DNA of 64,000 nt, from contig JABYQQ010000026.1 of the NCBI GenBank assembly GCA_022605405.1, positions 310,001 through 374,000 on the forward strand. The letters run 5' to 3'. Below the pieces are notes generated by a model that had not been told where the DNA came from, searched no databases, and saw only the letters and a program-made list of their open reading frames with translations. The DNA is from Earliella scabrosa (taxonomy: Eukaryota; Basidiomycota; Agaricomycetes; Polyporales; Polyporaceae). Positions 26,841 to 64,000 of this stretch are shown in pieces. How positions within the stretch are numbered: position 1 is the first letter of the stretch; the number at the start of each line of letters is the position of its first letter. Position numbers and translations under genes: made by a program.

Positions 26841-27639
26841 CTACCCACCCTCCTCCGCTGATTGCTTTTGTTGCGATGTTGCGCTATCTTGCTGGCGGCT
26901 TGCGTGCTGACCAAACGTCGGAGCCGGCGGCGGATATGGCGGCATTGGCGGCGGTTGGCGATACGGTGGCGGCATGACATTGCCAGGATACGGAGGGAAC
27001 CCATGAGGGGGGCCGTATGCTTGTCCCGGAGCCATGTACCCTCCCGGCACATTCATACCGTAAGGCGGCCGCTGACCTGCGTAGTATGGAGGAGGGGCGA
27101 GATGAGAATAGTGATATGTGCCGGTATATTGGGGATATGGGTGATGGTCATACGGCCCATACGGATGCCCGTGCATGGCTCCCGCTTGACGTCGAATGTC
27201 CTCGCGCGCAACACGCAGACCATACGCGCGCGTCTGTTCCACATCGGGTGGGACATCGCCGCGGGCATGCGGAAGTGGGTCCGCGCCCGCGCGCCATGGG
27301 ACGTCGGTGCGGGGTTCTGAGAGCATGTCGCCGCGGGTGTGCGGTGGCGCGTCGGTACTGGCGTTCGAGGGAGCGTCCGCACGAGTGGTGAAGGGAGCAT
27401 GAGAGCCGGTGTGCGAGGGACCGTCGGCGCGAGCGTGCGTTGTCCCCTCGGAGTGGACGTGCGAGGGACCGTCGGCGCGAGCTTGCCTTGTCGCCTCGGA
27501 GCGGACGTGTGAGGGACCGTCGGAGACGGCGCGCGATGGAATCTCGGTGGGAATGTGCGAGGGGACGTTCGACCGCGCGTGCAAGGGAGCCTTGGCCGGG
27601 ACTTGCGAGAGGGAGTCAGCGGGAGCGTGCGATGGGACG

Positions 27640-27860
27640 TCAGCAGCGACGTCGGCGGGGACGTCGGCGGGGACGTCGGCGGGGACGTCGGCGGGGACGT
27701 CGGCGGGGACGTGCGAGGGGACGTCGGCGGGGACGTGCGAGGGGACGTGCGGGGGGACGTGCGAGGGGACGTCGGCGGGGACATGCGAGGGTACCTTGGC
27801 GGGGACATGTGAGGTGACGTCTGCGGGGACATGTGAGGAAACGTCGACGGGGACGCGCGA
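27640..27860. repeat. 12/24-bp GC-rich minisatellite in coding sequence
   Basis: Tandem units of GGGGACGTCGGC alternating with GGGGACGTGCGA variants. On the minus strand they encode alternating VPAD and VPSH blocks of the large gene. The plus strand is also open across the array. Confidence 0.85.
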
Positions 27861-30800
27861 GGACGTGTCGGCGGGGACGACACCGGTGGCAATACGCGAA
27901 GGGATGTCGGTCTGTTCGCGCCCTGCCTCCGCGTTGTTCGAGACCGGGAGTTGGGAGAGTGGACGATCCCCGTCTTCTGCACCATCCATCCGACGCAATT
28001 TCTTGGGACGCGGCATGGGAGCCTGAGGAAGGAGGAACTGTCAACTGTTGGAGCTACTGGAGATGGAAAGATGGCTCGCTTACCCTGTTTTCAGCCGTCT
28101 GCCCTGGCGCTGACGCAGTAAGATCGGAGCTATCGGGGGAGACTGGGTCGACGGCACGACCCTTGCCCTTACTCTGCGTTGTTGAGCTATGGTCCACCTC
28201 CAGAGCAGAGCTTGGCTTGGGGTGGGCCTTCATACCGAGCATATCGAGCGCATCCGGCATGTCAATGTCGGAGTCTTCCAAGTTCAGCAGGCTATTCGCC
28301 GACGCTTTCCGCTTGAGTGGCTGACCTCGGCGCAGCCCAGATGCGCTGTCGTTCTCGGATGAGTCGTCGCTGATTATCATCGTGTCGGCGGGCCTTCCCT
28401 CACGCGGGGCATCCCTCCGGGGCGTGTCATGGATCCGGACGTTCACGGCGCGGAAGCGGACTCCGGTCTGCTGAGGGGGCCGCGAGCTTTCCGGAGCTGG
28501 AGATGCGCTCTTTGGTAGAGCGGTCTTTGAGGTACGAGGCGGAGGAGTCGACGGAGGAACGTCGTCCTCATCCGCGTCGGCCGTCCTGACCCGGTTGGCC
28601 TTGACGTCGACCTTGGCCTTAGCCTTGACCTTGGCCTTGGCCTTGGTCTTGACTTTCTGCGCGTCCTCGTCCTTGTCCTCGCCCTCGTCCTCGTCCTTGT
28701 CCTCGTTCTTGTCCCGACCCCGGTCTCGGTTCCGGTCCCTTACGTCGTCGTGGTCGTGGTCCTCGCCCTCGTCCTCGTCCTCGTCCTGGTCCTCGTCCTG
28801 GTCGTTCTCGTCCTCGTCCTCGTCCTCGTCCTGATCCCGGGGTCTCCGAGTCTTGCTACGAGCCGTCCGCACTGCGGTTGATGCTACGGCCTCGACATCC
28901 GAGTCTTCCGACGGCAGTGACGGAAGACCGGCGTAGTCTATCTTGCCGTTCACATACTGCCGCACGCCGCATTCATGTAAGGCGTTGGGAGGGGGAGGAG
29001 CGCCGTATATAACGGGATGCAGGGACTTGGTGAGTTCTGCAGAACACGTTAATCGTCGTGCGCCCGTCATGTCATTTGAGAGACTGACCTGTTGTCTGCC
29101 CCTGATGCAGGACAAAACGCAGCGGATGCGGATTGTCGCGGTCCATGATCGCGTCTACCAGAGCCTTCAAAGCCGGACCGCCTAACCCTTGTATACCTTT
29201 GGAACGCTTCTTCGGCTTGTCCTGGTTCGGATTGGGAAACGTGATAGGGTACGGGACGCCATGAAGTTGAATGCCGAGGTTTCCGAGGATGTTGACGAGC
29301 TGCCTGCAGGGAAAGTTGGTGGCGTCGTACAGGGGTTCAGCGCAGGGTCCCAACAGGCCTTCAGGAGAGAGCACGTGGGATGACCGTCGACTATCAGTCA
29401 ACCACAACTAACGCGAGCTTCAACTAGTCGACTTACGGGCTAATCTTCGAAACTGGGCAGTCACGAACTTCGCTCGACCGCTTGTCGGAGGTGCTTTGAT
29501 GTTCTCCGGGAGCTTGTACTGGTCAAGGCCGTCGGTGCCGCTGTTTGAGGCGTGCGTCGGATCGTCCTGCGCCGCTCGAGTCCGAGAGGCCGCATCGCCC
29601 AGTCTATGATTTGTGAGGCGAGCGATCCGGTCCTCCGCAACGTCTGCGTTATCTTCGTAGAGCAAGTCGCCTAGCTCAAGGTCGACATGGTTGCTGCGCG
29701 AGGCATGAGCTCCGGTATACATGACCAATGATCCCACTCACTAGATGTGCGTCTTGAAGCTCCCGATGACTGCGTTGTCGTCAATGCGCAGTCGTGTACG
29801 GAAAAACTGGGTATCGCCTAGTCAGGCCGCGCGAGCATTGTTGAGACAATTGAGACTTACGTCTTTGGCATGGCGGGTAGTAAACAGCTTCGCAAGCCCT
29901 GCGTCGGAGTTGACGTTGCTGCCGGCAACAATCAAGGCGGCGCTGAAGTCATAGATGTCCTCGGCCTCCTTGAGCTACCAGACCTCGGTCAGTTCTGCTG
30001 CTGCTGTAGCATACGCGTGCGACGTACTATGGGTTCGAGCTTTCGCAGCAGCCCGTTGAAGTCCTGCTTGCGCTGGCCAACAGTCGTAACACTAGTGGCG
30101 TTCAGATCTTCGAGAAGGCGGAACTTCTCCAGAATTTTCTTGGCGTTGTCGCCGTAGGCCTCCTTGAATGCGTCGTAGGCAAGAAGGCGCAACTGGACGT
30201 CCTTCTTGGCATCTAGGGGCGGACGTCGATGTTAATCGGTGACTTCGTAGACAATACACCGAGATTATAACTTACTTTCGCGTGCCGCTGTAAACGAAAC
30301 AGATAGTCGTCAGATAGGCGTCAGAGTCAGACGGACATGCAAAGGTCTCACCATCTGACACTCTGGAAAGCTCCTCAAGGGCATTTACCTTGTAATACCG
30401 CTCGTATACGTTCCACATGTTCTTGTGGAGATGCGTCCGGGAGCGTGCGATTGACCACTGGTCGAAGATCTGACCGACGGCAAGTCCGGTCTTTGCAGAG
30501 ACGTCCTTGGCTATCTTGATAGTCTCTTGGAGGCCGTCGGCGAGGATGTCAAGGTTGGCGTTAGAGATACGGCCCGGAGCCCGCGCTTCATCGTCGTCTG
30601 GGATGAGATCGCTGAGTGTGAAGAAGACCGAGTCGTCGACGTCCGCTGCAGCAGAATCCATACTGCTGCCAACGTCCTGCGTGACCGGAGGTCAGGATTG
30701 GATCCAACAGCTCAGGGGGAAAATCTCAGACTTACCCGTGCTTTCCCCTTGTCGATGCGTCTTGTTGGCGTCGGAGAGGCGGAGACGTGCGGAGGATCAT

Positions 30801-32099
30801 GAGCGCTGGCGTAGGAGAGAGTGCTGGAGGATGCCCTAATTTCGGTCTTGTGCGTCCTGGCGCGTAGCTCCTCACGACCGTCCGATGGACCGGGAGTCGG
30901 TTGGTCGTAACTGACGTCCTTGTCCAGATAACCGAAGACGTCCGCAGGGAGGTTCTGGGGTACGTCTTGGTGTTGCTCCCCTGGAGGGTCCGAGCGGCGC
31001 TCCCGGGGAACCTCTGCGAGGGGCTCCCCAGGTACGCCCCCGCGGGGCTCCTCCGGGCCATCCCCGCGGCGGCGAACGAGAGGGTCCTCGAGGATGTCCG
31101 CAGGAGGATGGATGCCATTGTGACCAACGGTGTGCCCTGGTTCACCCTGCGCAAGAGGCGGCGCTGGGTAGAAGTTTGCGCCGAGGTCGACTGGTGGGTT
31201 AAGGAGAGGATCATGGTTAATGTTGGGTGGAAATTCCAAGGGAGGGAGTTGCTCGGGATTGAGGCCGTAATTGTTTTGGCGGGGGTATGGAGGCTCGTAG
31301 CCGTGAGGCGGGTACTGGAGGAGGTCGTTGGGAAACGCCCCGGGATGAACAGGAGCGTAATTGCGGTGATGGTGTAGCGCATGCGCCATCGGATTCCACG
31401 GTTGACCGTGCATCTCTGGAGGCACATGCATTGATGAGTACTCAGTCATAAATTGGTATAAAGCGATGAGCGCACCTGCTTCCCAGAAAGGTACTTGAAT
31501 GGTGCTTCCAGGGCCTCCCGGTGGGTGGTGGCGGATGGCCTCACGAGGCAATGGATGCTGACCGTGATCGACAGTACGCGGATCGAGTTGCGCGCCCGGA
31601 ACCCCTGCGAGCACGTCTGGTTCGTTGTCGTGAGGGGCGGGGTAGGAGGGGGTCCCTGCAGGAAAGACGTAGCGGTTGTCGTTCTGGTCATGACGGGGAT
31701 AGACTTCCTGTCTGTGATGCGTTTGTTCTGCGCGAAATGGCGGGTCCTGGTGTCCAAGAAGATCGCGCCGTTCGTCCGGTTGAGCTCGCGCACCCCGTAG
31801 GGGGGAGGTTACCTTGCCGGCTTGCTTCCCGACGGCTGCGGGGCGGAGGCCAGCATGGAGGTCGTTGGAAGAGAGCTCCTCACCGACACGCCCCGAAGCG
31901 TCCTCGGTGATATCCATGGGATCGTCCCCCCCAGCACTGGCCATCGGACCCTCCTCGCGCACATCCTGGCGGCCGTCCTTGTTGACACCCTGGCCGTCAT
32001 CCACGCGCACATTCTCACCGACTGCCCGGCCTCCCCTGGGTGCCTCGCCGACGTCCATTTGATCGTCGACGCGAACGCTGTCGCCGACATCCATCGGAA

Positions 32100-32550
32100 C
32101 GTCGTTGCGGATGCCGTCGCGGCCGTCGATGGCGAGGTCGTGGCGGGGGTCCTCGGGGACGTCTTTGCGGAGGTTGTCGCGGAGGTCCTTGGGGACGTCG
32201 TCGGGAACGTCTCTGCGGAGGTCATCGCGGAGGTCTTTGGGGACGTCGTCGGGGACATCTCTGCGAAGGTCGTCGCGGAGGTCCTTGGGGACGTCGCTGG
32301 GGACGTCTTTGCGGAGGGTGTCGGGGACGTTATCGGGGACGTCGTCGGGGACATCGATGCGGGCATCGCTGCGGCTGGGATCGTCTCGGACGTCGTGGCG
32401 GAGGTCGCTGCGACTGGGATCGTCTCGGACGTCGTGGCGGAGGTCGTCGCCGACGTCTTTGCGGAGGTCGTCGCCGATGTCTTTGCGGAGGTCGTCGCCG
32501 ATGTCTTTGCGGAGGTCGTCGCCGACGTCTTTGCGGAGGTCGTCGCCGAC
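32100..32550. repeat. 24-bp coding minisatellite, left of the insertion
   Basis: Near-identical 24-bp units (minus-strand reading GDDLRKDV/I) are repeated about five times at 32430-32550, with degenerate related units down to 32100. The same repeat continues on the other side of the KDZ element at 53180-53460, showing that both flanks were one exon. Confidence 0.85.
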
Positions 32551-32559
32551 GTTTCCGGG
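32551..32559. repeat. Target-site duplication, left copy
   Basis: GTTTCCGGG, directly repeated at 53163-53171 on the other side of the element. Read on the minus strand both copies encode Pro-Gly-Asn in the same frame of the interrupted gene. Confidence 0.8.
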
Positions 32560-32565
32560 AGCCCA

Positions 32566-32644
32566 TTCAGTAGAAATCCTCACGTTAGTGTTCGAGCCGG
32601 GCTGACAATTGCCCACTCCAGTGGGCCAGCCGGGCCCGACCGGG
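32566..32644 (+). repeat. Left terminal inverted repeat of the KDZ element
   Basis: Starts TTCAGTAGAAAT and runs through GAGCCGGGCTGACAATTGCC. It matches the reverse complement of 53077-53156 with one single-base indel and a handful of substitutions. Confidence 0.9.
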
Positions 32645-33004
32645 CATAATATATGCCCACATGTATGTCCCGGCCGGGACGTAAATGCATTGACACGAAC
32701 ATATCCCGGCCGGGAACAGCTGCCTGCCCACTGCTGTATACCGGCCGGGAGGAAGTAAAGCACCACTAAGAGTATATAAATAGAGTGTTCTGCTATGTAG
32801 GAGGGTGTGTTATGGTAGTGCTGTAGTGTAGGAACGTGAACGCAGCCTGGCTGGCATGTATTTTCAGCCAGACAACCAATTTACCCTGATGGTGTATCAA
32901 GGTGCTCTGCGGTTGCACCAGCCCAAAATGCGCTACCTGGGCACTGGCTAGCCATCATGAGGTGCTCAAGAATACGCTGCACCCTTGAGCAGCGTGAGAC
33001 ACCT

Positions 33005-33885
33005 CCAAGATGAGTGAGAGATGTGCTCCTACCTCGAGCCGGGTTGACCGGCCTGCTCACACCAGCGGCACCTGGGATACGATCTGGGGGTGCGCCAACC
33101 CTGAAGTCACTACCCAGACACCGTGATGCCTTTTCGGACTGGTTGCACAGCAGACCGGGGCGGTATTCAGCCAGATGGAGAGAGAGATGTGCTTCTGTCT
33201 AGAGCCGGGCGCACCGGCTTGCTCACACCAGCGGCACCTGGGATACGATCTGGGGGTGCGCCAACCCTGAAGTAACTACCCAGACACCGTAATGCCTTTT
33301 CGGACTGGTTGCACAGCAGACCGGGGCGGTATTCAACCAGATGGAGAGAGAGATGTGCTCCTACCTCTAGCCGGGTCACCCGGCTTGCTCACACCAGCGG
33401 TACCCGGAATACAATCTGGGTGTGCGCCGGCCCTGGGCTGACTACCCAGACACCATAATGCCCTCCGAAACTGGTTGCACAGCAGACCGGGACAGTATTC
33501 AACCAGATGGAGAGAGAGATGTGCTCCTACCTCTAGCCGGGTCACCCGGCTTGCTCACACCAGCGGTACCCGGAATACAATCTGGGTGTGCGCCGGCCCT
33601 GGGCTGACTACCCAGACACCATAATGCCCTCTGGAACTGGTTGCACAGCAGACCAGGACAGTATTCAACCAGATGGAGAGAGAGATGTGCTCCTACCTCG
33701 AGCCGGGTCGCCCGGCTTGCTGACACCAGCGGTACCCGGAATAACAATCTGGGTGTGCGCCCATCCTGGGATGATCACCCAGCCACCATAATGCCTTCCC
33801 GCACAAATTGCGAAGCACACCGACAGCACACTCTGCCCCAATGGAGCGTGAGATGTGCTCCTACCTCCAGCCGGGTTGACCGGCT
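33005..33885 (+). repeat. Left subterminal 166-bp tandem array
   Basis: About five head-to-tail units with a period of 166 bp (the string GAGAGAGATGTGCTCCTACC recurs near 33344, 33510 and 33676). Each unit includes a near-perfect palindrome such as AGCCGGGTCACCCGGCT. The same family occurs in the opposite orientation at 51150-52520. It is noncoding; short open frames across it are repeats of one another. Confidence 0.9.
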
Positions 33886-34027
33886 TGGTCAGTCACTGCA
33901 TATCTACACATTTTCCCATCTGAACATTATGTCAAGTTGGATTGTATATTGCTGAGAGAGTAAACACATATATTGGCCGTCCCACATCTGCTTGCTCTGG
34001 CTGGACTACATTCCTGGCAGTGCCGAC

Positions 34028-34415
34028 ACCCCGGCCGGGGTACATGTGTTGCAACTTGGACGGCCCGGCCGGGGTACATCAGCTGCAATGCTAAGAGCCC
34101 GGCCGGGATACATACGTTGCAATGCAGACAGCCCGGCCGGCCTACATGTGTTGCCATGCTGAGACCCCGGCCGGGATACATACGTTGCAATGCAGACAGC
34201 CCGGCCGGCCTACATGTGTTGCCATGCTGAGAGCCCGGCCGGGATACAAACATTGCAACGTATGTATCCCGGCCGGGGTACATGTGTTGCAACTCGGACC
34301 GCCCGGCCGGGATACATACGTTGCAACGCAGACAGCCCGGCCGGGGTACATGTGTTGCAGTGCTGACAGCCCGGCCGGGGTACCGGTGTTGCAACGTGGA
34401 GAGCCCGGCCGGGGA
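34028..34415. repeat. 34-bp tandem array with CCCGGCCGGG palindromes
   Basis: About 11 units of 34 bp, each beginning CCCGGCCGG and continuing with a TACAT-x-x-GTTGCAA block. A looser continuation with the same palindrome runs from 34570 to 35045, with units such as CCCGGCCGGGCGAAACACA also spaced 34 bp. Very rich in CpG. Confidence 0.88.
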
Positions 34416-34569
34416 TGGTGACCAATCAGATTCTCTTATAGCACACTCGTCTATACATCTACATGCTGTCACACTTGTCTCAAGCACAGAATTATTTAGT
34501 GAGTAATATGTCTATACCTCTTTTATATTTGCAGTACTAAACTGTGTCTGTCAGTCACTCAAGGCAACC

Positions 34570-35045
34570 GGTATCCCGGCCGGGATCCCACAGTTAATCG
34601 TTATGCACACCAGCTGGTGAAGTTGCATGACCCAAGTTGAACCCCGGCTGCGCTGACATGGTCTGCACAGGTGTGTACCGGCCGGTGCACACGCCTGAAC
34701 ACGATGGTATCCCGGCCGGGTGTCCAGTAGTGCCATCCATGTTGCCCGGCCGGGCGAAACACATTGTCACCCGGGTAGCCCGGCCGGGCGAAACACATTG
34801 TCACCCGGGTAGCCCGGCTGGGCCAAACACATTGTCACCCAGGTAGCCCGGCCGGGCCGCACACATCGTCATGCTGGTACCCCGGCCGGGTGCACAGTGT
34901 CTCCACAGCAGTGGCCCGGCCGTCTGTGCAGCATTTCCACAGGAGCACACCGACCGGGACAAATGCATCTGTACTCAGGTATCCCGGCCGGGTGCACTCC
35001 ATCTGTACTGTGGTACCCCGGCTGGGTGTACCCCATCTATACACG
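34570..35045. repeat. Second CCCGGCCGGG repeat block
   Basis: About 11 copies of CCCGGCCGGG or one-base variants (for example CCCGGCTGGG), often 34-35 bp apart and followed by CACATTGTCACCCGGGTAG-like sequence. Related to, but diverged from, the array at 34028. Confidence 0.8.
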
Positions 35046-35587
35046 CGTATTCCAGTTCAATGAACTATGTGTCTACGCAACCATTTTGACTTAGAGGAGA
35101 CTACGTTGCGATTATAATTCAGATAGTAGTAGCATCAGTGGGGACAAAGGTGAACTGGGTGATAATGATACTGGAAAACGAGGCAGAAGAAGCAGAGCAG
35201 ACAGCGGTAGGTTTCGCAAGGGAGACGGAGCGGGAGAACAACGGATCGGGGTGTAAGCAGCAATCTTACAGACATACCCTGCTTAGGCACTTCTTTGATT
35301 CATGGGTGTTGCTTGACCAACACCACAAACGCCGCGTAGTTACATTATTTTACTCCTTTTCTGACCGTCTTGTTGCACTTTGTTTACACACGGCCTTGTC
35401 AATATGTCGAAGATTTTTATCGCTTGCGACCCTGTGGCGCATACTAATGCTTCCCTACTCCACTTTCCACTACAATACACAGCCTTTTCCCGGCCTAACC
35501 AAAGCCGTCCAGCCCGGCCGTGCCGCCCCGCCCGATTGTCCCGCCCAGCCCGGTCCACACGCCTGAGGGTTGCCCAATTCCGCTCTC
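35046..35587. other. Noncoding spacer in the KDZ element
   Basis: 540 bp between the left repeat block and the first cargo gene. CCCGGCC motifs cluster at 35495-35560. No gene supported. Confidence 0.4.
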
Positions 35588-36339
35588 TTACTGAGTAGAA
35601 TCACGTTTTCTTTTTGAGCTTCCAGTCGTGGACGTCGATGTGTTGTTAGATCCCGCGGCTTGCATCAGGTCTGTGACAGCATCAAGCCGGTCCTTTGCGA
35701 GATCCTTGATGGTGTCGGCAAGCTGGAGGGTCTCAGAGATGTCGACATGGTAGCTCGTTATAGGGCGATACTGCAGGTGGTCAGCTTATGGACAGCATTG
35801 CCTAGAAGCTTGCACTTACCACCCACGGATCGTCACCACGCCACCAACTGGGCCATCCACTGCCCGGCCCGGCCTGCCCGGCCTGCCCGGCTTGACCGAT
35901 CCACCTCCACCATTGGTCCCGGCCCAGCGAGGTACCAGTAAAGTCAAGACGAGGTGGTCGGTTTTCAATGAGGTCCGGTACGTTGAGGTTTCTCATATCG
36001 ATCTTCAGACTGACATCTTTCCACTCGACTTCCCGCAGAATCGCTTTGAGGAGGGGAGGAGTCCCTCGGTACTTCGGCCGCTCATTGTCATCAACCTGCA
36101 TGAGGGTAACGTTGAGGATACCAATTGCACTAATGGCATACCACTGAATTCCTGTTGTCAGTGAGATATTCATCCATAAACTTCATATCACTTACCACCT
36201 CCCTGCCCAAGCCCTGACTGTACCGATTATTCATCTCCTCATCCGCATCCTCGGGGTAAACCTTGAGGGCATGAAAGATGCGCCAAGCGATGTGCTCCAG
36301 CTCGGCGAATGCGACGCGGCCTGCAGTGCAGAGAGACAT
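35588..36339 (-). CDS. Small conserved KDZ/TET cassette protein (A copy)
   Basis: Protein of 216 aa in three exons (36339-36196, 36143-35820, 35770-35588), both introns phase 0. The first exon ends GLGREV and the second begins WYAISAIGILNV, with PLLKAILREVEWKDVSL in the middle. The C-terminus has a helical DISETLQLADTIKDLAKDRL segment and a basic tail (SSKRKRDSTQ). It aligns with the cassette B gene at 61721-62494 in length, exon structure and motifs (GREL/WIAIGAAG, LLKHVEWKPDRSL). No known domain recognised. A run of GQAGQAGQAG comes from the element's dispersed CCGG motif. It lies 245 bp downstream of the transposase gene on the same strand. Confidence 0.7.
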
Positions 36340-36584
36340 AGTGGTGGACTATGATGGTGGTTGGAGATCAACCCAAATCAGCGGCTTTCTAGTGTGCTGC
36401 GGTTGGGGTTTTTTCTATATCTGGTAACTGATCACCACCTGGTACGTATGCATCCAGAGTCCAACCGAGAGAGCCGTACCGGCCGGCCAGGCCGGCTCAA
36501 ATTCGTGAGCCCACTAATAGCCTTCTTCATTACGCCAAACACTCTGTTGGCCATAAATATATAATCGACATTCTTTACGCTCGA

Positions 36585-41105: not shown

Positions 41106-41151
41106 TGTGTGGGGGGGAAAGTCACAGTTCAATAGGGTGGAGACAAGGCAA

Positions 41152-52520: not shown

Positions 52521-53076
52521 TTCTGATTCAGATATGCTGTGCCACCCACTCTCTACACCTTCCATGATGTTTGGTAATTTTGCCAGACTCCATGGAGAAC
52601 TAGGGCAAACTCCATGCCCTGGGTTAGATTTGGAAGCCGGCTGGTGCAACCCACCCAATCGTGCGAAACATGAAGTACTACTAACAGCGGCAACAGTGTA
52701 GAGTGAACCATATCATAGCATCATTGTGTATGATGAAGTGAGAGATCATTAGACTACAGAGCTCCAACCGCAGCTACTAGGCAGCTGAACATGTCGCCTT
52801 GAGACAGTACAGATACAAGTCGTCATTAAGTACACGGTGTGCTGTCCCTCTGTATGCCTGCTGGTATGCCTGCTGTATGCCCATAACTGTACTATGCATG
52901 CTTAAGATACTGTCCCAGACTCTCATCGTATCCAGTCAATGTGTGCCAAAGTTGAGTGCTCTGACCCGGACCAACCGGTTTTGACCGCATCCCCTGTGAC
53001 CCCGCACCGGCCGGTTCATTTGACTGCAATATGGCAAAACACCCCGGCCGCACCACTCCAGTGCCATAGAAATGGT
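52521..53076. other. Noncoding spacer near the right end of the KDZ element
   Basis: 556 bp of mostly unique sequence with scattered CCGG motifs near 52965-53060. No gene supported. Confidence 0.45.
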
Positions 53077-53156
53077 CCCGGCCGGGCCCGGCTGGTCCAC
53101 TGGAGTGGGCAATTGTCAGCCCGGCTCATACACTACAGTGAGGTATTTCTACTGAA
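53077..53156 (-). repeat. Right terminal inverted repeat of the KDZ element
   Basis: Reverse complement starts TTCAGTAGAAAT, as at the left end; the block GAGCCGGGCTGACAATTGCC is identical in both ends. Confidence 0.9.
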
Positions 53157-53162
53157 GTATGT

Positions 53163-53171
53163 GTTTCCGGG
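53163..53171. repeat. Target-site duplication, right copy
   Basis: GTTTCCGGG, matching 32551-32559. The same 9-mer also occurs in a neighbouring coding repeat unit near 53284, so the target was a repeated sequence. Confidence 0.8.
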
Positions 53172-53179
53172 GACGTCGT

Positions 53180-53460
53180 CGCCGACGCGGTGGCGGGTTT
53201 TGTCGCGGCGGAGGTCGTGGCGGATGTCGTGGCGGACGTCGTTGCGGAGGTCGTCACGGACGTCTTTGCGGAGGTCGTCGCCGACGTTTCCGGGGACGTT
53301 GTCGCCAACGCGGTGGCGGATTTCGCCGCGGCGGGAGTCGTAGCGGAGGTCGTCGCCGACGTCCATGCGGGAGTCGTCGCGGACGTCGTCGCGGACGTCG
53401 TCACGGGAGTCATCCCCGGCGTCGTGACGGATGTCGTGGCGGGAGGAGTGGCGGGCATCC
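53180..53460. repeat. Coding minisatellite, right of the insertion
   Basis: Degenerate 12-24-bp units with CGGACGTCGTCG-like core, continuing the array at 32100-32550 of the same exon. Confidence 0.75.
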
Positions 53461-54706
53461 AGGCGGGAGCCGTCTCCGTCGTGTGCGACAGCCTCTCGGC
53501 CATCCTTGGGGACCTCCCGGGCGTGCTCCGAACTCTTCCCGACGCCCCCGATGCGAGCACGTACGTATGTGGGAGTCTCTCTGTGGACGTCCTGACCAGT
53601 GTCGCTGTCGAGCCCCAGCACTCCCTCGATGATGGGGACGGTCCCTATCGTACATCTGTCGACGTCTATGCTGACACCCTCGCGAACATGATCAGGGACG
53701 TTCCTCCCGACCTCTGAGGTGCCAGCGCTGCTGTCTCCGCCGGGCTCGGTGGGTATCGGAGTGTTAGTACTGCGGCGGCCGATAAAAATTGCTGACACCA
53801 TCCCAGTGCTCCCCTCCACATTCCCGACAGGCGGCTTTCGGCCGCGGCGCGCTGTAGAGACCGATTGCGAAGTAGCCTGACCGGTGACTGTTCGCCAAGT
53901 GAGCTAAGACATACAAACCGATACATTAGCAAGACGTACAGGAATGTTTCGATTCCGATATGAGGTTCTGCTGCTTGCGACGAACCCTCGCGGGGGCGAC
54001 AGCAGCGGATGCCAGTGTCTCTAGTTAAAGGAGTCCGAGGACAATGAGTGATTAATATGAGCCTTACGGGTCTGCAGAACATACCAGTCTCGGCCACGGC
54101 AGCTTCAGCCTTCTTCTGACGTGCACGTGTGTTTCGGGGCTGAGAGTCGTCGATAGTCGACGCAGGAGCGATGTTTGCCGCCCCAAGTAGGTCTGTCGAC
54201 GAGGTAGCCGCAACGGGCATGGTTGAAGAGTCAGCGGTGGTGGAACGCGGGGGTGATACCTCGGAGAAGGCCTGCGGCGCGTCCGCGACGGCGTCCGACG
54301 GGGCGGACGCGCTCAATTGCAGGTCGCTCTCAGGTACGGAGCTGTCTAGTCATAGTTAGGCTGTGATCATACCGGGAGAACGAATGTAAGCTCACCTTGG
54401 CCTGCGCGAGAGACCCGTTCTGTGGCAACGGTCTTGATGAACGGGCTCGCGTGGGGGGTGGCTTTGACACGGCGAGAAGACTGTCTGAGGTTGACCGGAG
54501 GCGGACATTCGGCCGGCAGGGTTCGTTTTGAGAGGCGAGGCTTGGGCGTGGCGGACGCGTCTGGCCGCGACGCGTCGGTCGACGCGTCTGGCTGCGACGC
54601 GTCGGTCGACGCGCTTCCAGGCGCGTCTTGAAGCGGTTTCGACCGTGTCTACAGTATGTTAGGGTCTCTGGGCGAGGGCATTGCAATGATGACTTACTCT
54701 GGGCAT

Positions 54707-55121
54707 TTTTTTGCGATTGAACGCGTCGGAATCTGACGAGATGGCTGCTGAGGATGGTGGTGGTGGTGGTGCGAGGCAAAGGACGGGGAGAACGCCGATT
54801 GATGGGGACCGGTTGTCAAGTCGGGCACGCAGTCCCGGGACTTGCCTTCAGGTCGACGATGCTCAGAGATGAGAAGCTGTCGAAGTGGCATGAAAGTGTG
54901 TTGTGGCAACAGCGAGCGCGCCAGTCGCGCTTTCCTAGGCAAGCCAGATAATAAATTGAGCAGGAATAAAAGGACGTGCTCAGTGAGCTCACCAGCAAAA
55001 TACCGCGGAGATTCCGCCCTGTCGTCGAAGGTTCAATGGATTGGGATTCCCTTCGTGTGGCGTTCCAAACTGCTGCCATCATCGCCGGCCCTGCATTGGA
55101 TGATCAAGATATACATGACTA
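54707..55121. other. Intergenic region in cassette B
   Basis: 415 bp upstream of the split gene and downstream of the G-P-I-G gene. Contains its probable promoter. No other gene supported. Confidence 0.45.
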
Positions 55122-56102
55122 TCATACAGGTCTACTGTTGTCATACCACATTTGCTCAAACATATCTCCTCGGGCGCCGATGATTCCGTTGTACATCTGC
55201 CAATAAGGGTCGCGGGAAGAGATGCGGGACTCCGGGGAGCGAGCGAGCACGCCATCTGCACGGCGGAGGGCAAGAAGTTCAGCATCTAGAGTGGTTAGAC
55301 GCCTACTCAACCTGGCCAGCGCCGTGTCGCTCGTTTCGCATTCATCATCACGCGCGCCGAGGGACGACGCAGTGGGTGTCGGGGAGAAAGTCGGGTTCTG
55401 AACGGGGCTAGGCGACCCTGAAGCGTTGAGGGTGGCGAAAGATGTCGAACGCCTGGCGTCGGGGTCGGTACGACTGGGGAAGGAGCGCTGCTCGCCCTCA
55501 GATTCAAAAGGCAACCCGGCCTCAGAATCGGAGCTGCCGCCGCGCCGCTGACCGATGACTTCTAAGGAGGATGAGCGGTCGGAGTCAGAATACTCGCCCT
55601 CGCCCACCGGACCAATCGGAGAAGAGGATCGGTCGCCGCTATTGGGGCCTCCGATGGGATGGGCGGGGGGCGTGCTCGCATCGTCGTAGGGGAGATCAAG
55701 TCGGTGGGCACCATCAGGAGCGAGGACGATTTCTTCTGTGATGCCTCCATCGCTACTCCACTCGCCGATGGGCCCAAGCTCCGATGAAGGTGTGTCTTCA
55801 CGCTCGTCCGGAGAGTCCGAGCGTTCGGCAATCTCCCCGAGCGGTCGAGCGTGGTCGGGGGACGAGGGTGAACAGGCGAGGAACAATGGAATCGCCTCCA
55901 GTCCTGAAGACAAGTAGTGGTTGGCCTCTCCAACCGGATTGCCGGGAGAAATAGCCCCTGGAGTAGGGGAGCAGATCCGTACCCGCCGCGGAGGCGGTTC
56001 CCCTGGTGTTGCAATGAGCAGCAGCAACGGAGATGAATACAAGGATTGTTACTGACCATGGTCCGCACTCATGAACATTCTTCTGGGGCGCTTTTGAGCC
56101 AT
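55122..56102 (-). CDS. G-P-I-G-repeat protein (B copy of the GPFG protein)
   Basis: Protein of 308 aa in two exons (56102-56057, 56002-55122). Low-complexity Ser/Asp/Glu/Pro-rich chain with recurring motifs such as PLGEI, GPIGEW, HPIGGP and SPIGPVGEGE, and a C-terminal helical segment (LSRRLTTLDAELLALRRAD). It occupies the same head-to-head position relative to the Zn2Cys6 gene as the GPFG gene of cassette A and is likely its fast-evolving homologue. That homology rests on position, repeats and C-terminal helix, not on alignable globular sequence. The last codons could be spliced differently (a GT donor precedes the stop). Confidence 0.62.
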
Positions 56103-56358
56103 GATTCGCAGTGCCGATAGTCTGTGTACTGTTGAGTTAGTTCATCGCCAGGCAACAGCTGCTAAACAATTGCGTACATGCAGTCTGTGGCGAGCGCAGA
56201 TAGCGAAGGGAGAAGCGCCCGTGGGGTGGAGCCTGAACCTGGGTAGGCGCCCGGCCGCCGCGACCATCTGGCAACATACGTCCCTTAGTTGTTGTTCCGT
56301 TCCTTTCCCTCTGCTACTCTCTTCCGCCACAATTAAGACTCCGTCTGCTTGAGTCTCC
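56103..56358. promoter_or_regulatory. Bidirectional promoter between Zn2Cys6 and G-P-I-G genes (B)
   Basis: 256 bp separating opposed start codons; nearly the same size as the equivalent 258-bp gap in cassette A. No clear TATA box on either side. Confidence 0.6.
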
Positions 56359-59330
56359 ATGTCTCAATCTAAGTCACACCCGGCCTGCTCCCGACATGTT
56401 CCTCCGCCTCCTGAAGCCGTCGAGGTAGTCCGAGACTACTGTAGTCAGTTGTACTACGCCTGGAAAGAGCGACCGGCCACGACTGCGCCCGCTCGGATCG
56501 AGTGGAACAAACATTTCGTCAAAACGTGCAAGGGACTTGGGAAGGAGCTCGACAAACACCGCTTCACTTCCCTCCCGCCGTTCGTCATCGGATGCATATG
56601 GGAATTCAACAAGTTCGTTCATAGCAAAGCCGACTTCCTGGATGCTGAAGCCATCACTGAGGCCGTCGATAGAACCCATCCGGCCTTGGATCATCGCTCA
56701 CCGCGGGGTTTGCGATATGCTCCGGCATCGCAGGGGCTGGTCACGCTACGTGAACGGCATGAGATGCGTAACACTTGGTGGGAGATCTACAGTGAGTACA
56801 TTCCTCTTCACCCACCAACATGGCTCTTAGACTGGTTAAGACCGACCGGAGAAGACTTCAACACTCAAGGATCTCGAGGCAGAATCCGCTCCTACGGCTT
56901 TCCCTTCCACGAGCAAGAAAACCCACCCCGCCGGGCCGCCTAACGACGCTGTGGACATAGCCGGCAACATCACGCAAGACCTTCCCGCCGACCACGTCAC
57001 TGCGTTGGAAGCATCCATCTCAGACACGGCGGTCGGTGTCTCATCTCCACGTCGGGGAACGCGTGGTCGATCGGCATCTGTACGCGCGAGAACAGCAGAG
57101 CCTCTGACCCCGCCCGTTACGCGCAAGGGCAAGCGCAAAGCCTCTCGCTCTCCGCCTCAAGACCATGGCCCGCGCGCCCCTTCCGTTACTTCGACAGCCT
57201 CTGACATCCGACCAGAACAGGAGGTGCCGGCGACCGTCATCTTTGTGAGCCACGAACTCTGCGCCCTGTTTCATCACATACTGATTAGAATGTAGCCAAC
57301 TGGAGGCGGATGTGAAGGGTGTCAGAAGGTCGGGGCAGTATGCGAGGTCGATACGTTTGCAGGCACTGTCTGTAAGCATTGCCGAAAGAACAAGGTCAAG
57401 TGCAGTTTCATGCGAGTTGTCTCAAAACCCCTTCGTTGCTATCTGGTCTGGCGATTCTGGAAGTTATCGCACCAGCCTGCAGACGGCGTCGACGTTACCT
57501 TCATTCCATCCGAGTATTCGTCTCCGTCCGCAACGCCGCCGGCCTGGTGGGAGACTGTCTCACCCACCCAGCCTCTCCCAGAGCGCAAGCGCCGTAAAAC
57601 CTCTGAGCCTCGCGTCATGGCTCCGCCGAGTGTTGTTGGCAATAGGTCTCGCTCGCGGTCTCGCTCGCACACGATTCCACCCGCGCCGGCTGCAGCTGAA
57701 GAGCTTTCGGAGCACTTGACAGCTGCAACGCCTCTCCCTGATTGTTCCGACCATCCCGCCGCTGAAGCAGATGGTGCGCAGTCTGCAGGAGAGTCACCTC
57801 AACATCCCGACATATCCGGACCAAACGAACCCGGACCCGACGAAGATCCCACTTGGACTGTCGCTCCCACGCAGATTTTTCCCCCTCCTTCTGCACGCGC
57901 GCTCCGGGCCAGGGCGCGCTCCCGCGCTCCGTCGCAGAACGCATCTGTCGGCACACCTGGAGTTGGCCTTTCCAGTAGCATACCGGTCAATCACGAGTTG
58001 CGCGGCAAGTCAACTACTCCGGTTCTACGCGTCCCCATGGTAGATGGTGAGTTGCATTCCTCGGTCAGCAACCTGTCGGCGGTGGAACTCATTCTTGACA
58101 GGCTCTTGGCGCAACCTGCCGACGTTGCAGAAGAGTTCAGCGCACAGCCTCGGCAGTAGCTCAACGGAGAACCTGCCGCTGACCCGCTCCTATGTCCTAG
58201 ACCCATGGCCGCCCCGCGTTCGTGTCCCCGAAGCCGCTGCCGTTGCCGTCCCGGAACACATTGTTCCTCGCCCCCCGACGCCTCCGGCATCTGCATTCCA
58301 GCCTGGACCCGCTACAATCCAACTGGCCGAGGATGCACAGCAACGCCTTTCACATATCCACGACCTCAGATTCTCTCTTGAACGTGCGGCTGCGGAGGCG
58401 GAGAAACTCGCTCGCGACAGCCACATCAGAACTCAGGCGGAGCAAACGGAGGTTACGCATCCCGAGGCCTCCCAGGAGGCGCTCGCCCTCCTTGCGACGC
58501 AGCATGCAGAATTGGCTGCCAACACTCGTCGATGTGCGGAGGTCCTCGCTCGAGTATCCCGCAGCCTTATGGCAATATGTTCCCTGTTCGACCTCATCCC
58601 ACCTATCCCCATGAATGACCGCGCTCTCCTAGAGATGCTGGACCTGGTCTGTCAACTCCGAAGCCTTTATGGCGCAGTTCAGGAGTCGCACGACCGTGCG
58701 CAAGACAATCTCCGACCCCTCCAGCGGGAGCTTTGCATGGTCCGCGACGAGCAGCAAGTGGTGCTCGATCGGCTGGACCAAATACCCAATGACGTCTCGT
58801 CGGCGGTGTACCCGCTACTTCACAATCTCTATCTACACCTATCCGAAGGTCACCAGACGTCCCGAAGCGATTTCGACAGTATCCTTGCCCGTTCACAACT
58901 TGGAGAGCAGGATCGGGATCGTCTGCTGCAGCTCTTCATGCGCGGAGCCCCCCGTTTCGTCGCGTCCGATGGCGCCTCCAACTCCGCGCCCGCCAGTGAC
59001 CTGACCGATGTATTGACGCAGGTCCTGGCGCTCCGCACCAGGGTGGATGCCGTGGAGAAAGCACGCGGATTCCCCGGCGATAACCGTGAGCGTCAGGGTG
59101 AATCAGGTAGTGAGCTACTCCTTGACCAGAAGCAGTTGCGGGACGAGATAGCAAGTCTTGAGACGCGTGTCACAACGCTAGAGGGGTCGCCGGACATGGG
59201 GACAGCCGTGCAAGCCTACTTAGAGCAGTTGGGACTTGACATTGACACTCTCCGTCGTCTTGCTCAGTACTCTAGCAAGACTGCGTCGTATCCGTTCCCA
59301 GGCTGGTCATGGGCCTCGGGATCGAAGTAG
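56359..59330 (+). CDS. Zn2Cys6 / coiled-coil protein (B copy)
   Basis: Protein of 938 aa in four exons (56359-56791, 56841-57244, 57296-58046, 58102-59330). The N-terminal domain parallels the A copy (AWKERPATTAPARIEW, LPPFVIGCIWEFN, WWEIY). Then a Pro/Ser/Arg linker, then six cysteines at 285, 288, 295, 305, 308 and 315 with the same C-x2-C-x6-C-x9-C-x2-C-x6-C spacing. The C-terminal half is a long helical/coiled-coil region (RDEQQVVLDRLDQIPNDV, LRDEIASLETRVTTLEG), suited to dimerisation. The 404-nt exon 2 has the same length and phase as exon 3 of the A copy. Probable DNA-binding factor; target unknown. Confidence 0.8.
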
Positions 59331-59491
59331 AAAAGCCGTTGTTAGCTTGTAGAATGTCTGTAGTACGTACCTAGCGCCGAATGTTTCCAACAATGATAAT
59401 CGGGTCCGGGAGACGGCGGCAACTAGCAGCTTACCCGCTATTTCCCGCGGTGACGTGTCGATCCTCGTCCCACCACCACTCTCTTGAGATC

Positions 59492-60855
59492 ATGGAACCG
59501 GTTTTCAACAGTGCGCTCGCCGAACGCCGTGCTGAAACCGCTGCGTTCATTGTGTCCCTCTACAATGTCTACCGGGAACAACAGGCCGTTCGCAATGACA
59601 GGGACGCGCCGTCTGCCCTTCAGTTTCCTCCTCCGCCGGCCCATATCAGCACCGTTCTTCACGAGGAGTGCCACCAGGTTGCCCAGGTCCTGGCCTCTGC
59701 GGCTAACAATATTTGTAAGTGCGAGCTGCCGGCGATAGTCAGTATGTGCTGTGTCTAATCACTGATACCCACCGCAGATACTTTAGACTGGGACGCTACA
59801 CAGTATGCCGCGTCGGTTCAGAAAGTTACGATGGGCTCCGAGCAATACGAAGAGAGCCTTTTGCGTCGCTTTCCGCCTCTAATTCCGGTTCAAGATGTCT
59901 TAGACGAGAAGAAACCGTTGCCGGTGATTCCAGACCCCTGTGTCTTCTGCGATATCCGGGGGCGACGGGTATCCTGGAGTCTGCCCTCCATAATGCCTGA
60001 ACGGCTCCAAGTGAGGGCTTGTATATGACCAGCAAAGTCGCAATGCTGATGCTGACTCCTGATACAGGGGTTGATCCGAGATGTCACTGCCGTACTTGAA
60101 GGTCGCCTCAGTTACGATCATGTGTCTCCCTCGGAGCCTCTAGGCAAGAAATGGCGCACCGCCGATCGGTATTTCGGGCAGGGCGATGGGCTACAGCCGG
60201 GCCAAGTGTTTATTGGTGCTGCATGGTTTGAGCAGGGACACTTGGTGCGTCATGATGAGCTGTCTCAAGAGTGTTTGGTCGTTAACTATTCCACTAGCCT
60301 CCGAAGTACGCGCCGATTGTTCTTGCAGCTACCAAGACGACAGAGGCAGAAGTATGGATGTCGGCAATGCAGGAACCTTGTCAAATCCTCGACGGAATCC
60401 TTGCGGTCACTCATCCGACTCTGTACGCAGCCGGGCGTCGACTCATGCAGCGTTTGTATGAAGACGACGCTCGTGCCCGGGCCATCGTGCACCAGTGGCC
60501 CTCGGTGTACCACGCTGTGCACGTCATCGTGAACCGTGAAACCGTATATCATCGCGACATCAACGGTCTTCCTGGATGGTATGATCTACTGCTCTCTGTA
60601 GGCAACTACGGGGAGGAGGCGGTGTTTTCCATGAGGTCTTTAGGCGTTTGTGTGCCGTATGACAGCGGCAGTGTGGTCATGGTCTGCTCGCGTATTGTAA
60701 TGCACGGTGTTCCGCGAGTCTCGAAGGACCGGATCTGTTTGGCATGGCTTATGCGGGACTGTGTTCTTAGTTACCATCATGTACACTGTGCGGAGTGGTC
60801 GTATGTTGGCTCCGAGTTGTTAGGCATGCCTCTGGGGACCGCCGAAGTGCTATAG
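59492..60855 (+). CDS. TET/JBP-family 2-oxoglutarate/Fe(II) dioxygenase (B copy)
   Basis: Protein of 396 aa in four exons (59492-59714, 59778-60010, 60068-60244, 60298-60855). Metal ligands His296-x-Asp298 (YHRDING) and His347 (MHGV), 2-oxoglutarate Arg356 (DRICLAW). Core context HRDINGLPGWYDLLLSVG parallels the A copy. The oxygenase fold's N-terminal part contains GQVFIGAAWFEQGHL and ILAVTHPTLYAAGR, also matched in A (RVTHPDLYMAGR). Expected to oxidise 5-methylcytosine; substrate and product are inferred from the family. It follows the Zn2Cys6 gene on the same strand after 161 bp and precedes the small conserved gene. Confidence 0.87.
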
Positions 60856-61720
60856 TCATGTATGCGTACTGTACGCCGGGACCTTGTAGCTGCCTCGGAC
60901 GCAATTGGTAAACCACGCACTATTAGAATGGCATAACTCGAACATGTCTGACAGTCTCCGACCCATTCCCCCGACCTCCGGCGTGACTCTCAGTCTCTCG
61001 GAGCTCTAAGAATACTGAGCGCCAGCTGGGCCAACTCACACCGAGGTACTGCCGACGTGGCTCCACATCCCCCCCACCCCCTCACACCTGCCGGAAAAGG
61101 AACTATCATACAGCCGCTACATTCCAGACGCTGCCGCGACTGCGTCCCATGGCTCGGAGCACGTATCTCCAGCATCGGAGAGTCGTAGCTGGAGACGCCG
61201 AGATGAGCGCTCCGAAAGATTCCTCATTACTGCAGAAGCCGAAAGCAACTTGTTCCCCTGAGGATACCGCTCCGGAGCAATGACGGTAGCTTGAATCCAG
61301 GTCCGAAGGTATGCAGAACATGTTTTAGAAGGCTCCGGGCCGTTTCGAAATTGCTGTGCAGCTTCCCGGAGGGAGGGCATCGTTCCGAGGAACATTGAAC
61401 GTTCAAATCCACAAGGCCGTCGGACCGGCTCACAAAGTTCACGGAACCTGACGGACACAAGCTCTTTATCTTACGTAGGCTCTATTAAGCGTGGTCCACA
61501 GGCAAGACGATCGACCGCTACCATTTGTACCGCAGGCCCTGGCGATGTCGGACCTGACGATCTGGCTTTCGGACCGTCGGGAACAGGCCGGACGCTTTGG
61601 CATCAGCCGCTAAATAGAGCTCCGACGATGGTCCGCCCGTATAAAAAGCTAATCAGCACTCCGGAGCATCCCTCCATTCCTCCCGCCCTCATCAGGTCCT
61701 CCACGACATTCCCTGCCCCC
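60856..61720. other. Intergenic region with promoter of the small B gene
   Basis: 865 bp without a supported gene. A clear TATA box (TATAAAA, 61640-61646) is about 80 bp upstream of the next start codon. Confidence 0.55.
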
Positions 61721-62494
61721 ATGTCCACTTTCAATCAACCGGCAACTGGGGCCATACGCAGTCGACCTGATCCCACAAATCAGGTGCTGTGGTCATCTCG
61801 TCTAGAACTGCTTCTCTGCGTGTGGAGGATCGCTCAGGCGCTGCGAGCACTTCCGCGCTACCCCGGGGAGCTCATGTGGCGGCGTTGGAGTCATGGTATT
61901 GGTAGAGAGTTAGTAAGTAATGATGCATATCAATTTATCTGTCTACATGCGAGCTGACAGCCGCTCTTAGTGGATCGCTATCGGGGCAGCCGGACTGGAG
62001 TGCTGCACAGGTTGCGTCGTTGAACCCAGGGCTGGTCTCCGACGATGCATCCCCCTTGAACTCCTGCTCAAACATGTCGAGTGGAAGCCAGACCGAAGCC
62101 TGCGATTCAACGCAAGAACGTTTGACCCAGCGCACTACCTCCAGGTCTGCGGATCCATTGCGAACAGCTCCGACCTTGCATCTATGGACGCGGTGTGGAG
62201 CCATCCCAAGTGGTGGATGTGGCCAGAGTCTGGACCGGAGAACTCCCCGAGCTGGTGGTTGAATCCCCCAATGTTTCTAGTAGGATCTCCTGTTCCTGTT
62301 CCGTGATCTGCAGCGCTGACCATTACAAGTCCCATCCTATGCCACTGTACTCCACAGACCTTCACGATCTCAGTCAAGACGCCGAGGGCGTTCGCCGTGA
62401 GTTGCAGGCAGTCATCGAGACTCGCGCGAGCGCAGTGGACAGCGTGCACGTGCGATTCAACGAGCTGGAGCGTCAGCTTTATGGCGACGGATGA
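61721..62494 (+). CDS. Small conserved KDZ/TET cassette protein (B copy)
   Basis: Protein of 221 aa in three exons (61721-61912, 61971-62279, 62330-62494), both introns phase 0. Motifs GIGREL at the end of exon 1, WIAIGAAGLECC at the start of exon 2, and LLLKHVEWKPDRSLRF match the A copy at 35588-36339. A Trp-rich stretch (WSHPKWWMWP) and a C-terminal helix (DLSQDAEGVRRELQAVIE) follow. No known domain recognised. Conservation of this gene beside TET/JBP in both cassettes suggests it is a functional part of the module. An upstream ATG at 61628 is in frame but lies before the TATA box and is rejected. Confidence 0.72.
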
Positions 62495-62653
62495 CGCATA
62501 TCCCCTCCGCAGGTATTGGCGATGTACTGTATAGAATTAGAGCACGCTGGACCGGTGCATCGCTCTACCAATTCTGTGCTGTAGCTCAACCTTACGATGA
62601 ATGAAAAACGTGTTGTACAATAGCTGGGGCTGATATACACAGGGAACCGGAGG

Positions 62654-64000
62654 CTATTCTGGATGCGTGTTCTGCAAGACGAGAGTGAGCAGCCTGGAAC
62701 GGAACCGTCCGATGTCCAACTCAGAGCATGAGACGCATTCGAACCCTCTAAGCAGAGACGCGATGCACGCCAACACCCATACCCCGCAATCGTGTCCGTT
62801 TGTTTGCAACGGATCATTCTAGATTGGTGCAATTGTGAGTCGCGCAACGGATCCTGACGAATGCATAGTTCGCTTACAAGTAGCCGAAACGCACACCACT
62901 CCCCGTCGAGACTAGTCATGCGGTTTCCTCGCTCGGTAGCGAGGCGCTGAAGTCGATGAATCAGACCAAACACCGTCTACTGAGGAATCAGCTGTGAAGA
63001 AAGGTCATAGTAATGTGCATCACACGCACCTGAACGTCTTCCTCCCAAGTCTTCGGATGAGCCAGGCTGTCAAAGTAGGCGATCCGGCATTGACGAAGGT
63101 AGACGATCGCCAGCTCCCAATGTTGAGTCGAAGGCTGGTGTATTGGGATGATCCAGACATCCTTCTCCCAGTAGCGAGAGCGGTGATTGACTCGCCACAT
63201 GCCGTCATCAAGAGATGTGCCGTCGCGTTGTTGCGCCATTGCAAAGCTGGAGAGGATCGCCGGGCGACCGCCGGTGACGTTCTCTGTCCCGAAGTATCCG
63301 GAGAGGAGCTGTGCGCAAGCGTTGACTGAGTTATCGTTCAGCCACCCGGTGGGGTTCCGGAGCCGGCTGATGTCATCCGCAAAGAATGGGATGGCCTTGG
63401 AGTTGGGAACCGGGTTGGGCAGCAGTCGCGTTGCGTTGGGATCATCGACGCTTGGCCGTTGCCCCTTCGGAAGCGTCAATGTCGTATCCATACGGGCGTT
63501 ATACTGAGGAATTAACTGGTCAACATGCGTTCCGGAATCCAGGAAATATACTCACAGGGTCAGGATCCACACAAAGCTGTAGAACTCGGTCAATCATATC
63601 GAGGTGAGGATGTGGCGGACGGGAAGCTTGCTGAGGGTCGCGGCTCGCGGCGCGCCCGGAATGCTCAGTCGAGAGTGGTCCGAATATCTCCGCTGCTTCC
63701 TGATGAGAAGTTCGCTGGGAAGGGCCTGGCCGCGTCAGAAGGGGCAGACCGAAGTCTGGGGCGAGAACTTTGTCGGACGTCTCCCCTGAATGGGAATACA
63801 TTGAACGATCGGGTGAAGTGATGGTGGGGAATGATGCGGCAGCGCCGGTGCCACTGTAGCCATCGTCCGGATCCTCGTCGTCGTCGTCTCCAACAAGCTC
63901 CGCTAGAGCGTCGTGGACGATGATTACCTCGGGGTCAAACCATCTCGAGTCCTCCGGATCCGGCCGGTCGTCGTTATTCTGCCCATCGTGGAAGGCCAGG
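62654..64000 (-). CDS. Ulp1-family (C48) cysteine protease, 5' end outside window
   Basis: C-terminal part of a SUMO/ubiquitin-like protease; exons 64000-63556 (partial), 63503-63030, 62976-62878, 62818-62654. Catalytic features: WLNDNSVNAC (substrate-groove motif), His in PSTQHWELAIVYL, Asp in AYFDSLA, and Cys in NGHDCGVWVLA with an upstream Gln (PLQTNG). The N-terminal visible part is acidic and low-complexity (DDDDEDPDDGYS). Ulp1-like proteases remove SUMO from nuclear proteins and are also carried by several DNA transposon groups, including some KDZ relatives. Here it flanks cassette B; whether it belongs to the module or to another element cannot be decided from this window. Confidence 0.87.

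Follow-up and report, generated by a model that had tools for sequence, protein, structure and literature searches.

The stretch analysed here (the window) covers 64,000 bp of the genome of Earliella scabrosa, a wood-decay fungus of the polypores (Polyporales), and corresponds to C26:310001-374000 of a 51.7 Mb assembly whose contigs are designated by C-numbers. Two transposons with KDZ transposases, A and B, lie nested in it, each with a TET/JBP oxygenase gene, and four gene families are common to both. A reading made from the sequence alone had placed two TET/JBP genes here, and both were confirmed with PF12851 (62.5 bits in A and 64.3 bits in B, against a cut-off of 34.9). The names K and Z for the two element types were coined in this analysis, in which the trees are without reference elements from Kyakuja, Dileera or Zisupton, and all locus counts refer to this single genome.

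Two nested elements and their limits

The limits and repeats of the two elements are as follows (open reading frames are abbreviated ORFs).

26195..26202, no strand: left 8-bp target duplication of B, GTCCGAGT (right copy at 68641-68648, beyond the window)
26203..68640, no strand: element B, Z type, in-window part to 64000; 21,833 bp without A
26841..32558, - strand: repeat-rich ORFs of B, including the left-hand piece of the large gene that A interrupts
32552..32558, no strand: left 7-bp target duplication of A, TTTCCGG
32559..53163, no strand: element A, Kyakuja-like, K type, complete; 20,605 bp, limits from the aligned copies C35:36597-57531 and C37:272-20378
33008..33891, no strand: 166-bp tandem array, left subterminal region of A
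34025..35042, no strand: 34-bp arrays containing the palindrome CCCGGCCGGG
51145..52513, no strand: 166-bp tandem array, right subterminal region of A, in opposite orientation to the left array
53164..53170, no strand: right 7-bp target duplication of A, TTTCCGG
53164..54815, - strand: right part of the large gene of B split by A, with adjoining ORFs

The nesting of A in B, proposed from the sequence alone, is borne out by these limits. The copies on C35 and C37 fix the ends of A, and the DVP-repeat ORF of B is interrupted by A at the duplicated TTTCCGG, in agreement with the split large gene that had been assigned to B. Perfect 7-bp target duplications flank all three copies of A (TTTCCGG in the window, CAGAGAA and ACACGAG at the C35 and C37 copies). 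With the 166-bp arrays set aside, the three copies show only 36 differences over 17,151 columns, which indicates that A moved recently and is very young; it may therefore still be mobile and open to experiment. CpG decay still running among the three copies was considered and rejected, as the changes are too few (4 of 8 are C-to-T at CpG).

The ends of A read GA..TG and those of a second K element, C11A (C11:632159-647986), CA..TG; the inverted end regions are imperfect in both. C11A has a copy at C19:266380-295467, and the 7-bp flanks of the two copies are exchanged, with CATTGCA and CTTACCG each found once at either place. Such a pattern would result from an assembly join or from a reciprocal exchange of C11 and C19 by way of the element.

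The ends of B are inverted over 11 of 14 bases (CACCCCAGGCAGGG and CACCTAGGGCAGGG), and by our estimate far fewer than one chance pair combining such a duplication with such ends is expected in the space searched. The left end of B recurs in its relative C11B (C11:448244-477781), where the target duplication is likewise 8 bp long (GACTTCAA). B is flanked by two HET-domain genes that are 49% identical (window 22636-24990 and 68602-70941), and it appears to have been inserted in the tail of the right-hand one, whose frame continues across the joined flanks.

The four-gene cassette and its distribution

The genes of the two elements are listed below. The Pfam cut-offs used were 34.9 bits for PF12851, 26.6 for PF18758, 25.4 for PF00505, 21.0 for PF00172 and 20.7 for PF02902.

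35805..36348, - strand: shared gene X of A, two ORF pieces (BLASTP to C11A and C11B; alignment)
36897..40813, - strand: KDZ transposase of A, outer limits set by BLASTP to C11A; KDZ domain 37920-38771 (PF18758, 124.8 bits), CxC2 39261-40103 (PF18803, 91.2 bits)
41152..42544, - strand: TET/JBP gene of A; core 41152-41682 (PF12851), N-terminal part ("small") 41693-42544, aligned to C11A
42833..46090, + strand: HMG-like gene of A (42833-43465; PF00505, 19.8 bits, under the cut-off) with the following ORFs, which we infer to be part of the same gene
46264..48815, - strand: Zn2Cys6-like gene of A; N-terminal domain 48276-48677, cysteine cluster 47431-47709, C-terminal part 46264-47073 placed by position
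48903..50862, + strand: GPxG gene of A, divergent from the Zn2Cys6-like gene; WQNYN near the C-terminus
55125..56048, - strand: GPxG gene of B
56353..59330, + strand: Zn2Cys6-like gene of B; N-terminal domain 56398-56838, cysteine cluster 57296-57625, C-terminal part 58044-59330
59375..60855, + strand: TET/JBP gene of B; "small" N-terminal part from 59375, core 60298-60855 (PF12851)
61295..62303, + strand: shared gene X of B
62988..64000, - strand: Ulp1-like protease of B (PF02902, 35.9 bits), with a C48 catalytic domain
64167-68577, beyond the window: KDZ transposase of B, CxC1 type, limits by BLASTP to C11B

Comparison with C11A and C11B identified the four families common to A and B as TET, the Zn2Cys6-like protein, the GPxG protein and gene X. 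The set proposed from the sequence alone had contained the first three, had counted "small" as a gene of its own and had overlooked X. In C11A, "small" and the next TET exon form a single ORF; the database TET models P0004 and P0005 start with "small", and P0011, in which Zn and TET are joined, has it ahead of the TET core. "Small" is therefore the N-terminal part of TET, and its status as a separate gene is ruled out. When B is inverted, its TET (-), Zn (-) and GPxG (+) genes match those of A in order and strand, as had been stated, and the recurrence of this arrangement across the genome argues that the shared order is not due to chance. Gene X lies on the TET strand in both elements, between TET and Ulp1 in B and beyond the transposase in A; it is also present in the K elements C18 and C24:594.

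The TET cores of A (FHRDVSGQPTWYD) and B (YHRDINGLPGWYD) both keep the H-R-D motif, the second histidine and the residues placed as Gly331 and Asp337 of CcTET from Coprinopsis (by alignment to CcTET for B, by eye for A); the roles of these residues are those given in PMC12730594. The B core matches CcTET at E 3e-14; the N-terminal part gave no match worth naming among solved structures (best E 0.49), and a structure model built from seven rows had a mean predicted local distance difference test score (pLDDT) of 45.5 and was not used. The TET models P0004, P0005 and P0011 either end early or omit the latter half of the oxygenase core, where the DNA frame of B is open, and two of them are fusions (P0011 of Zn with TET, P0004 of TET with X).

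The three parts of the Zn2Cys6-like protein, namely the N-terminal domain, the cysteine cluster and the C-terminal part, occur together within the single models P0001, P0002, P0003 and P0010, the last of which spans the whole B gene. All six cysteines of the CX2CX6C..CX2CX6C cluster are invariant in the four rows compared. The N-terminal domain is a new domain; its fold model reached a mean pLDDT of 64, and a PDB search with it gave no match at E ≤ 0.001.

The GPxG genes had been described as present in both elements, and this stands for their position and strand, for the GPxG repeats and for a W-x-x-Y-N motif close to the C-terminus; the ORFs of A have no clear full-length similarity to that of B. 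All six further K elements examined carry the motif where it would be expected and on the expected strand, and three of them (C9, C24:26 and C4) match the GPxG profile. In C4 and C14:277 the motif is present and the GPxG repeat is absent from that ORF.

A PF12851 search of the genome gave 39 TET places, 29 of them over the cut-off. Searches with the Zn N-terminal domains of B and A gave 26 places, 24 of which belong to TET elements: the domain lies upstream and on the same strand at 24/24 TET loci of one TET clade, all over the TET cut-off. The distance to TET is 3.3-10.0 kb at 23 loci and 20.8 kb in the interrupted copy on C19, so that co-occurrence of Zn and TET within about 20 kb, the distance named in the sequence-only reading, holds in this genome at 23 TET loci, with the 24th just outside. 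At the 15 other TET loci (5 over and 10 under the Pfam cut-off) the domain was not detected in single-protein searches, which distant forms could escape. The association with the clade is strong (Fisher p 4e-11, the copies not being independent). The genes thus behave as the co-inherited module that had been suggested, with the unit redrawn as TET including "small", Zn, GPxG and X.

In the TET tree, the 20 distinct cassette TETs form one side (support 100/100). Near-identical copies were entered as one row in all trees, and these 20 rows stand for the 24 loci; the remaining four are copies, those on C35 and C37 with TETs that are identical or differ by one change, those on C19 and at C24:91038 assigned by score and neighbours only. 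Ten of the 15 loci outside the clade were sliced and seven were placed in the tree; outside it are C16:514 and C6:1118 (no BLASTP hit), C28:49, C35:281, C16:475, C35:85, C24:465 and C23:274. Nine TET/JBP places outside the clade have no KDZ within 20 kb (C24:646731, C13:1519178, C35:281785, C28:49132, C16:514458, C1:993481, C16:475341, C24:465042 and C23:274022) and perhaps lie in other transposons.

For GPxG, 14 places were found: 11 belong to Z elements, two to an orphan pair, and one lies on C6 next to a solitary X. The X search gave 20 (11 in Z elements, six in K elements, the C6 place and the orphan pair). This orphan pair consists of the two Zn N-terminal domains outside TET elements, C21:242896, with no TET within 10 kb downstream, and C24:15769. 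The latter falls in C24:14542-38086, a second nested case, where the K element C24:18784-31606 separates GPxG and X from the Zn parts of an orphan cassette in which TET was not detected. At C14:256158-277883, Z and K elements are adjacent; the N-terminal part of the Z transposase was not found in the 2.7 kb where K begins, and K may therefore be inserted in Z.

All 11 Ulp1 places in the genome are in Z-type elements, in line with its earlier assignment to B. In the Z elements on C6 and C1, a distance of 22-32 kb separates Ulp1 and the transposase from TET, and we infer that each set belongs to a single interrupted element. The HMG-like gene was found at nine places (from 11 rows; hit positions were transcribed manually into the association table), all in K-type elements and two of them weak. 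It had been listed, with the transposase, among the genes that A adds; this is correct for the HMG-like gene, and not for the transposase, as B has a KDZ domain just past the window (C26:375365-376061, window 65.4-66.1 kb; PF18758 101.4 bits, 66.2 for one exon). B as an element without a transposase is thereby ruled out.

Protein database searches with the Zn protein returned three and four proteins, all from E. scabrosa (about 8,000 candidates scored in each), and a search with TET returned six, two of them identified as E. scabrosa.

Two transposase clades and one cassette

The search for KDZ domains gave 129 rows, reduced manually to 83 places by dropping extra pieces of the same gene; TET lies within 20 kb at 29 of the 83. 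The KDZ tree, built from 48 domains, places the 11 Z transposases and the seven K transposases in two separate clades, each with 100/100 support. Z groups with nine KDZs that lack a cassette (100/99), and K with eight other such KDZs (91/87). The K loci C14:277 and C6:92 carry TET and yielded no KDZ, and have no row in this tree. A single group of Z and K was rejected (p-AU 0.012 in the approximately unbiased test, and 0.013 after removal of five long-branch rows). The cassette transposases apparently form two clades that are not sisters, and the target duplications point the same way, with 7 bp in A and C11A and 8 bp in B and C11B. The earlier suggestion that the module travels with KDZ elements is thus upheld, with the amendment that two transposase clades are involved and not one KDZ lineage.

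The cassettes give a different picture. Their concatenated tree separates K2 and Z from K1 and C4 (95/94), and the cassette rejects a grouping of C4 with K2 (p-AU 0.030), whereas the transposase rejects K2 with Z (p-AU 0.001). The pairwise identities conflict in the same manner: between C4 and C11A the transposase is 77% identical and the cassette 36%, whereas between C11A and B the values are 23% and 44%. These identities, together with the conflict of the two trees, indicate that the cassette has likely been exchanged between transposase backbones. A derivation of the Z cassettes from within K is unsupported on TET alone (p-AU 0.34).

Taken together, the data favor a reading in which two nested KDZ transposons share a four-gene cassette that is likely passed on whole from one transposase backbone to another and would act as an anti-silencing kit, a reading to which we assign a probability of roughly 0.6. 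Several results weigh against it. The rejection of Z with K becomes borderline with strict columns and LG+G4 (p-AU 0.055), K1 and C4 stand on long branches, a grouping of C4 with K2 is not rejected by the accessory genes once TET is left out (p 0.25), and TET alone does not reject a single K clade (p-AU 0.34). A TET-bearing KDZ locus of a third lineage has no cassette gene in the 10 kb upstream, the only side covered (X would lie downstream). The cysteine cluster of B scores below the PF00172 cut-off (20.5 bits against 21.0) and that of A has no PF00172 match, which is why the protein is called Zn2Cys6-like. Finally, CpG depletion is absent from B, C11A, C11B and most other slices.

Two points in this list, the results for TET alone and for the accessory genes without it, also fit common ancestry without exchange. 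On this account an old KDZ element carried the cassette, K and Z diverged, and many other lineages lost it. The agreement of K and Z in gene order and strands fits such a history, as does the fact that one branch of the unrooted cassette tree can split the K from the Z cassettes (69/72). It would require several losses on the KDZ tree, where a grouping of Z with K is rejected in two of three checks, and the identities among C4, C11A and B run the wrong way for it; we regard it as doubtful, if the most serious competitor. The notion that the genes are mere passengers, picked up and carried along by the transposons and useful to the host or to no one, draws on the fact that the cassette's function is deduced from sequence and that TET is absent within 20 kb at 54 of the 83 KDZ places. 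Order, strands and residues are nevertheless kept at 28-56% cassette identity (seven pairs), which suggests selection, and outside TET elements the Zn N-terminal domain is confined to the orphan pair, and GPxG to that pair and the one C6 place. Passenger status is accordingly improbable.

A third alternative divides the labor differently: Zn, GPxG and X would serve transposition itself, for instance by supplying another DNA-binding subunit that acts at the ends, and TET alone would handle silencing. Zn2Cys6 proteins bind CGG/CCG arrangements, and the repeated palindrome CCCGGCCGGG at the ends of A contains such an arrangement. All 20 copies in the window lie in A near its ends (32669-34992 and 53077; 0.11 expected), and the K element C11A has four. 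Among the four elements compared, the palindrome is absent from the Z elements B and C11B, yet the Zn gene is present in both types, and this role is therefore unlikely. The same distribution led us to reject CCCGGCCGGG as the target of the shared Zn protein; it may be bound by the K transposase.

Proposed role and comparison with known systems

The anti-silencing role that we favor is likely, and it could proceed as follows. The Zn2Cys6-like protein would bind DNA and bring TET to element sequences, where TET would oxidise 5-methylcytosine and perhaps also 6-methyladenine. A host base-excision pathway would then restore cytosine, and the transposase genes or the ends would become usable again. 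GPxG and X are assumed to act as partners or regulators of the demethylation step, and reassortment would presumably take place by recombination when two element types adjoin or nest, as A does in B. A more specific proposal sees in the cassette a self-contained kit for targeted DNA demethylation (a Zn2Cys6-like guide, TET and two partners) that passes as one block between unrelated transposase backbones; it is tentative and stands at less than even odds.

The base composition of A suggests past methylation. Its CpG observed/expected ratio is 0.78 (0.56-0.68 in the subterminal stretches) and its TpG/CpA ratio 1.25, compared with 1.09 in the host DNA left of B; host DNA shows no CpG depletion. 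A foreign origin of the lineage of A would also account for these numbers. C18 and C6:92 are depleted similarly to A, C24:594 mildly and C14:277 not at all; given the undepleted elements noted above, methylation of cassette elements is not general in the sequence record.

TET-bearing fungal transposons are already known. The KDZ family and its link to TET were reportedly named by Iyer in 2014. The cassette, a fixed block of four genes that includes a probable DNA-binding partner of TET, is a specific candidate for how demethylation could be guided in organisms other than animals. Plant Vandal transposons, which PMC12730594 also cites, encode a sequence-specific anti-silencing protein, and the cassette resembles them in that a transposon-coded factor would regulate its own element's silencing sequence-specifically, DNA binding being predicted for the cassette. 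Vandal transposons are not known to carry a TET oxygenase. The passage of the cassette between transposase backbones would also be much like that of counter-defence islands between phages.

Among fungal elements, KDZ1 of Cryptococcus (in the passages of PMC12810828 covered) resembles B in its CxC1-type KDZ and 8-bp target duplications; it is about 11 kb long and is described there with the transposase alone. The main text of PMC12730594 (Kojima 2025) reports that CcTET oxidises both 5-methylcytosine and 6-methyladenine and suggests that the TETs of transposons serve to take away silencing marks. The TET-bearing IS3EU elements of rust fungi described there likewise have a fixed order, with TET between the transposase and another gene, but the partner is an alpha-kinase, the transposase is another one and the TET is of PU type.

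Kyakuja is the only TET-bearing element that this main text names for Polyporales. Its TET-bearing members in Agaricomycetes are like A and C11A in combining a KDZ transposase with an AG-type TET and in their 7-bp duplications, and C11A shares their CA..TG ends. They are described as lacking inverted ends, whereas A and C11A have imperfect ones and A starts with GA instead of CA. Ulp1, HMG, zinc and accessory are absent as terms from that main text, and no shared accessory block is described for Kyakuja in the passages covered; likewise, no description of the four-gene block was found in the literature listings searched or in the passages of PMC8889193 and PMC12810828 covered.

The 8-bp duplications of B and C11B (GTCCGAGT and GACTTCAA) agree with Zisupton/Dileera. 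The TET-bearing Zisupton elements of Auriculariales and Agaricales in PMC12730594 likewise combine 8-bp duplications with an AG-type TET. The same main text reports no transfer between transposon superfamilies for AG-type TET; contrary to this, E. scabrosa, a polypore, has 11 Z-type loci and signs of transfer. The apparent reassortment thus contradicts the published picture of AG-type TET and points to a model in which anti-silencing modules evolve separately from the transposases that they serve.

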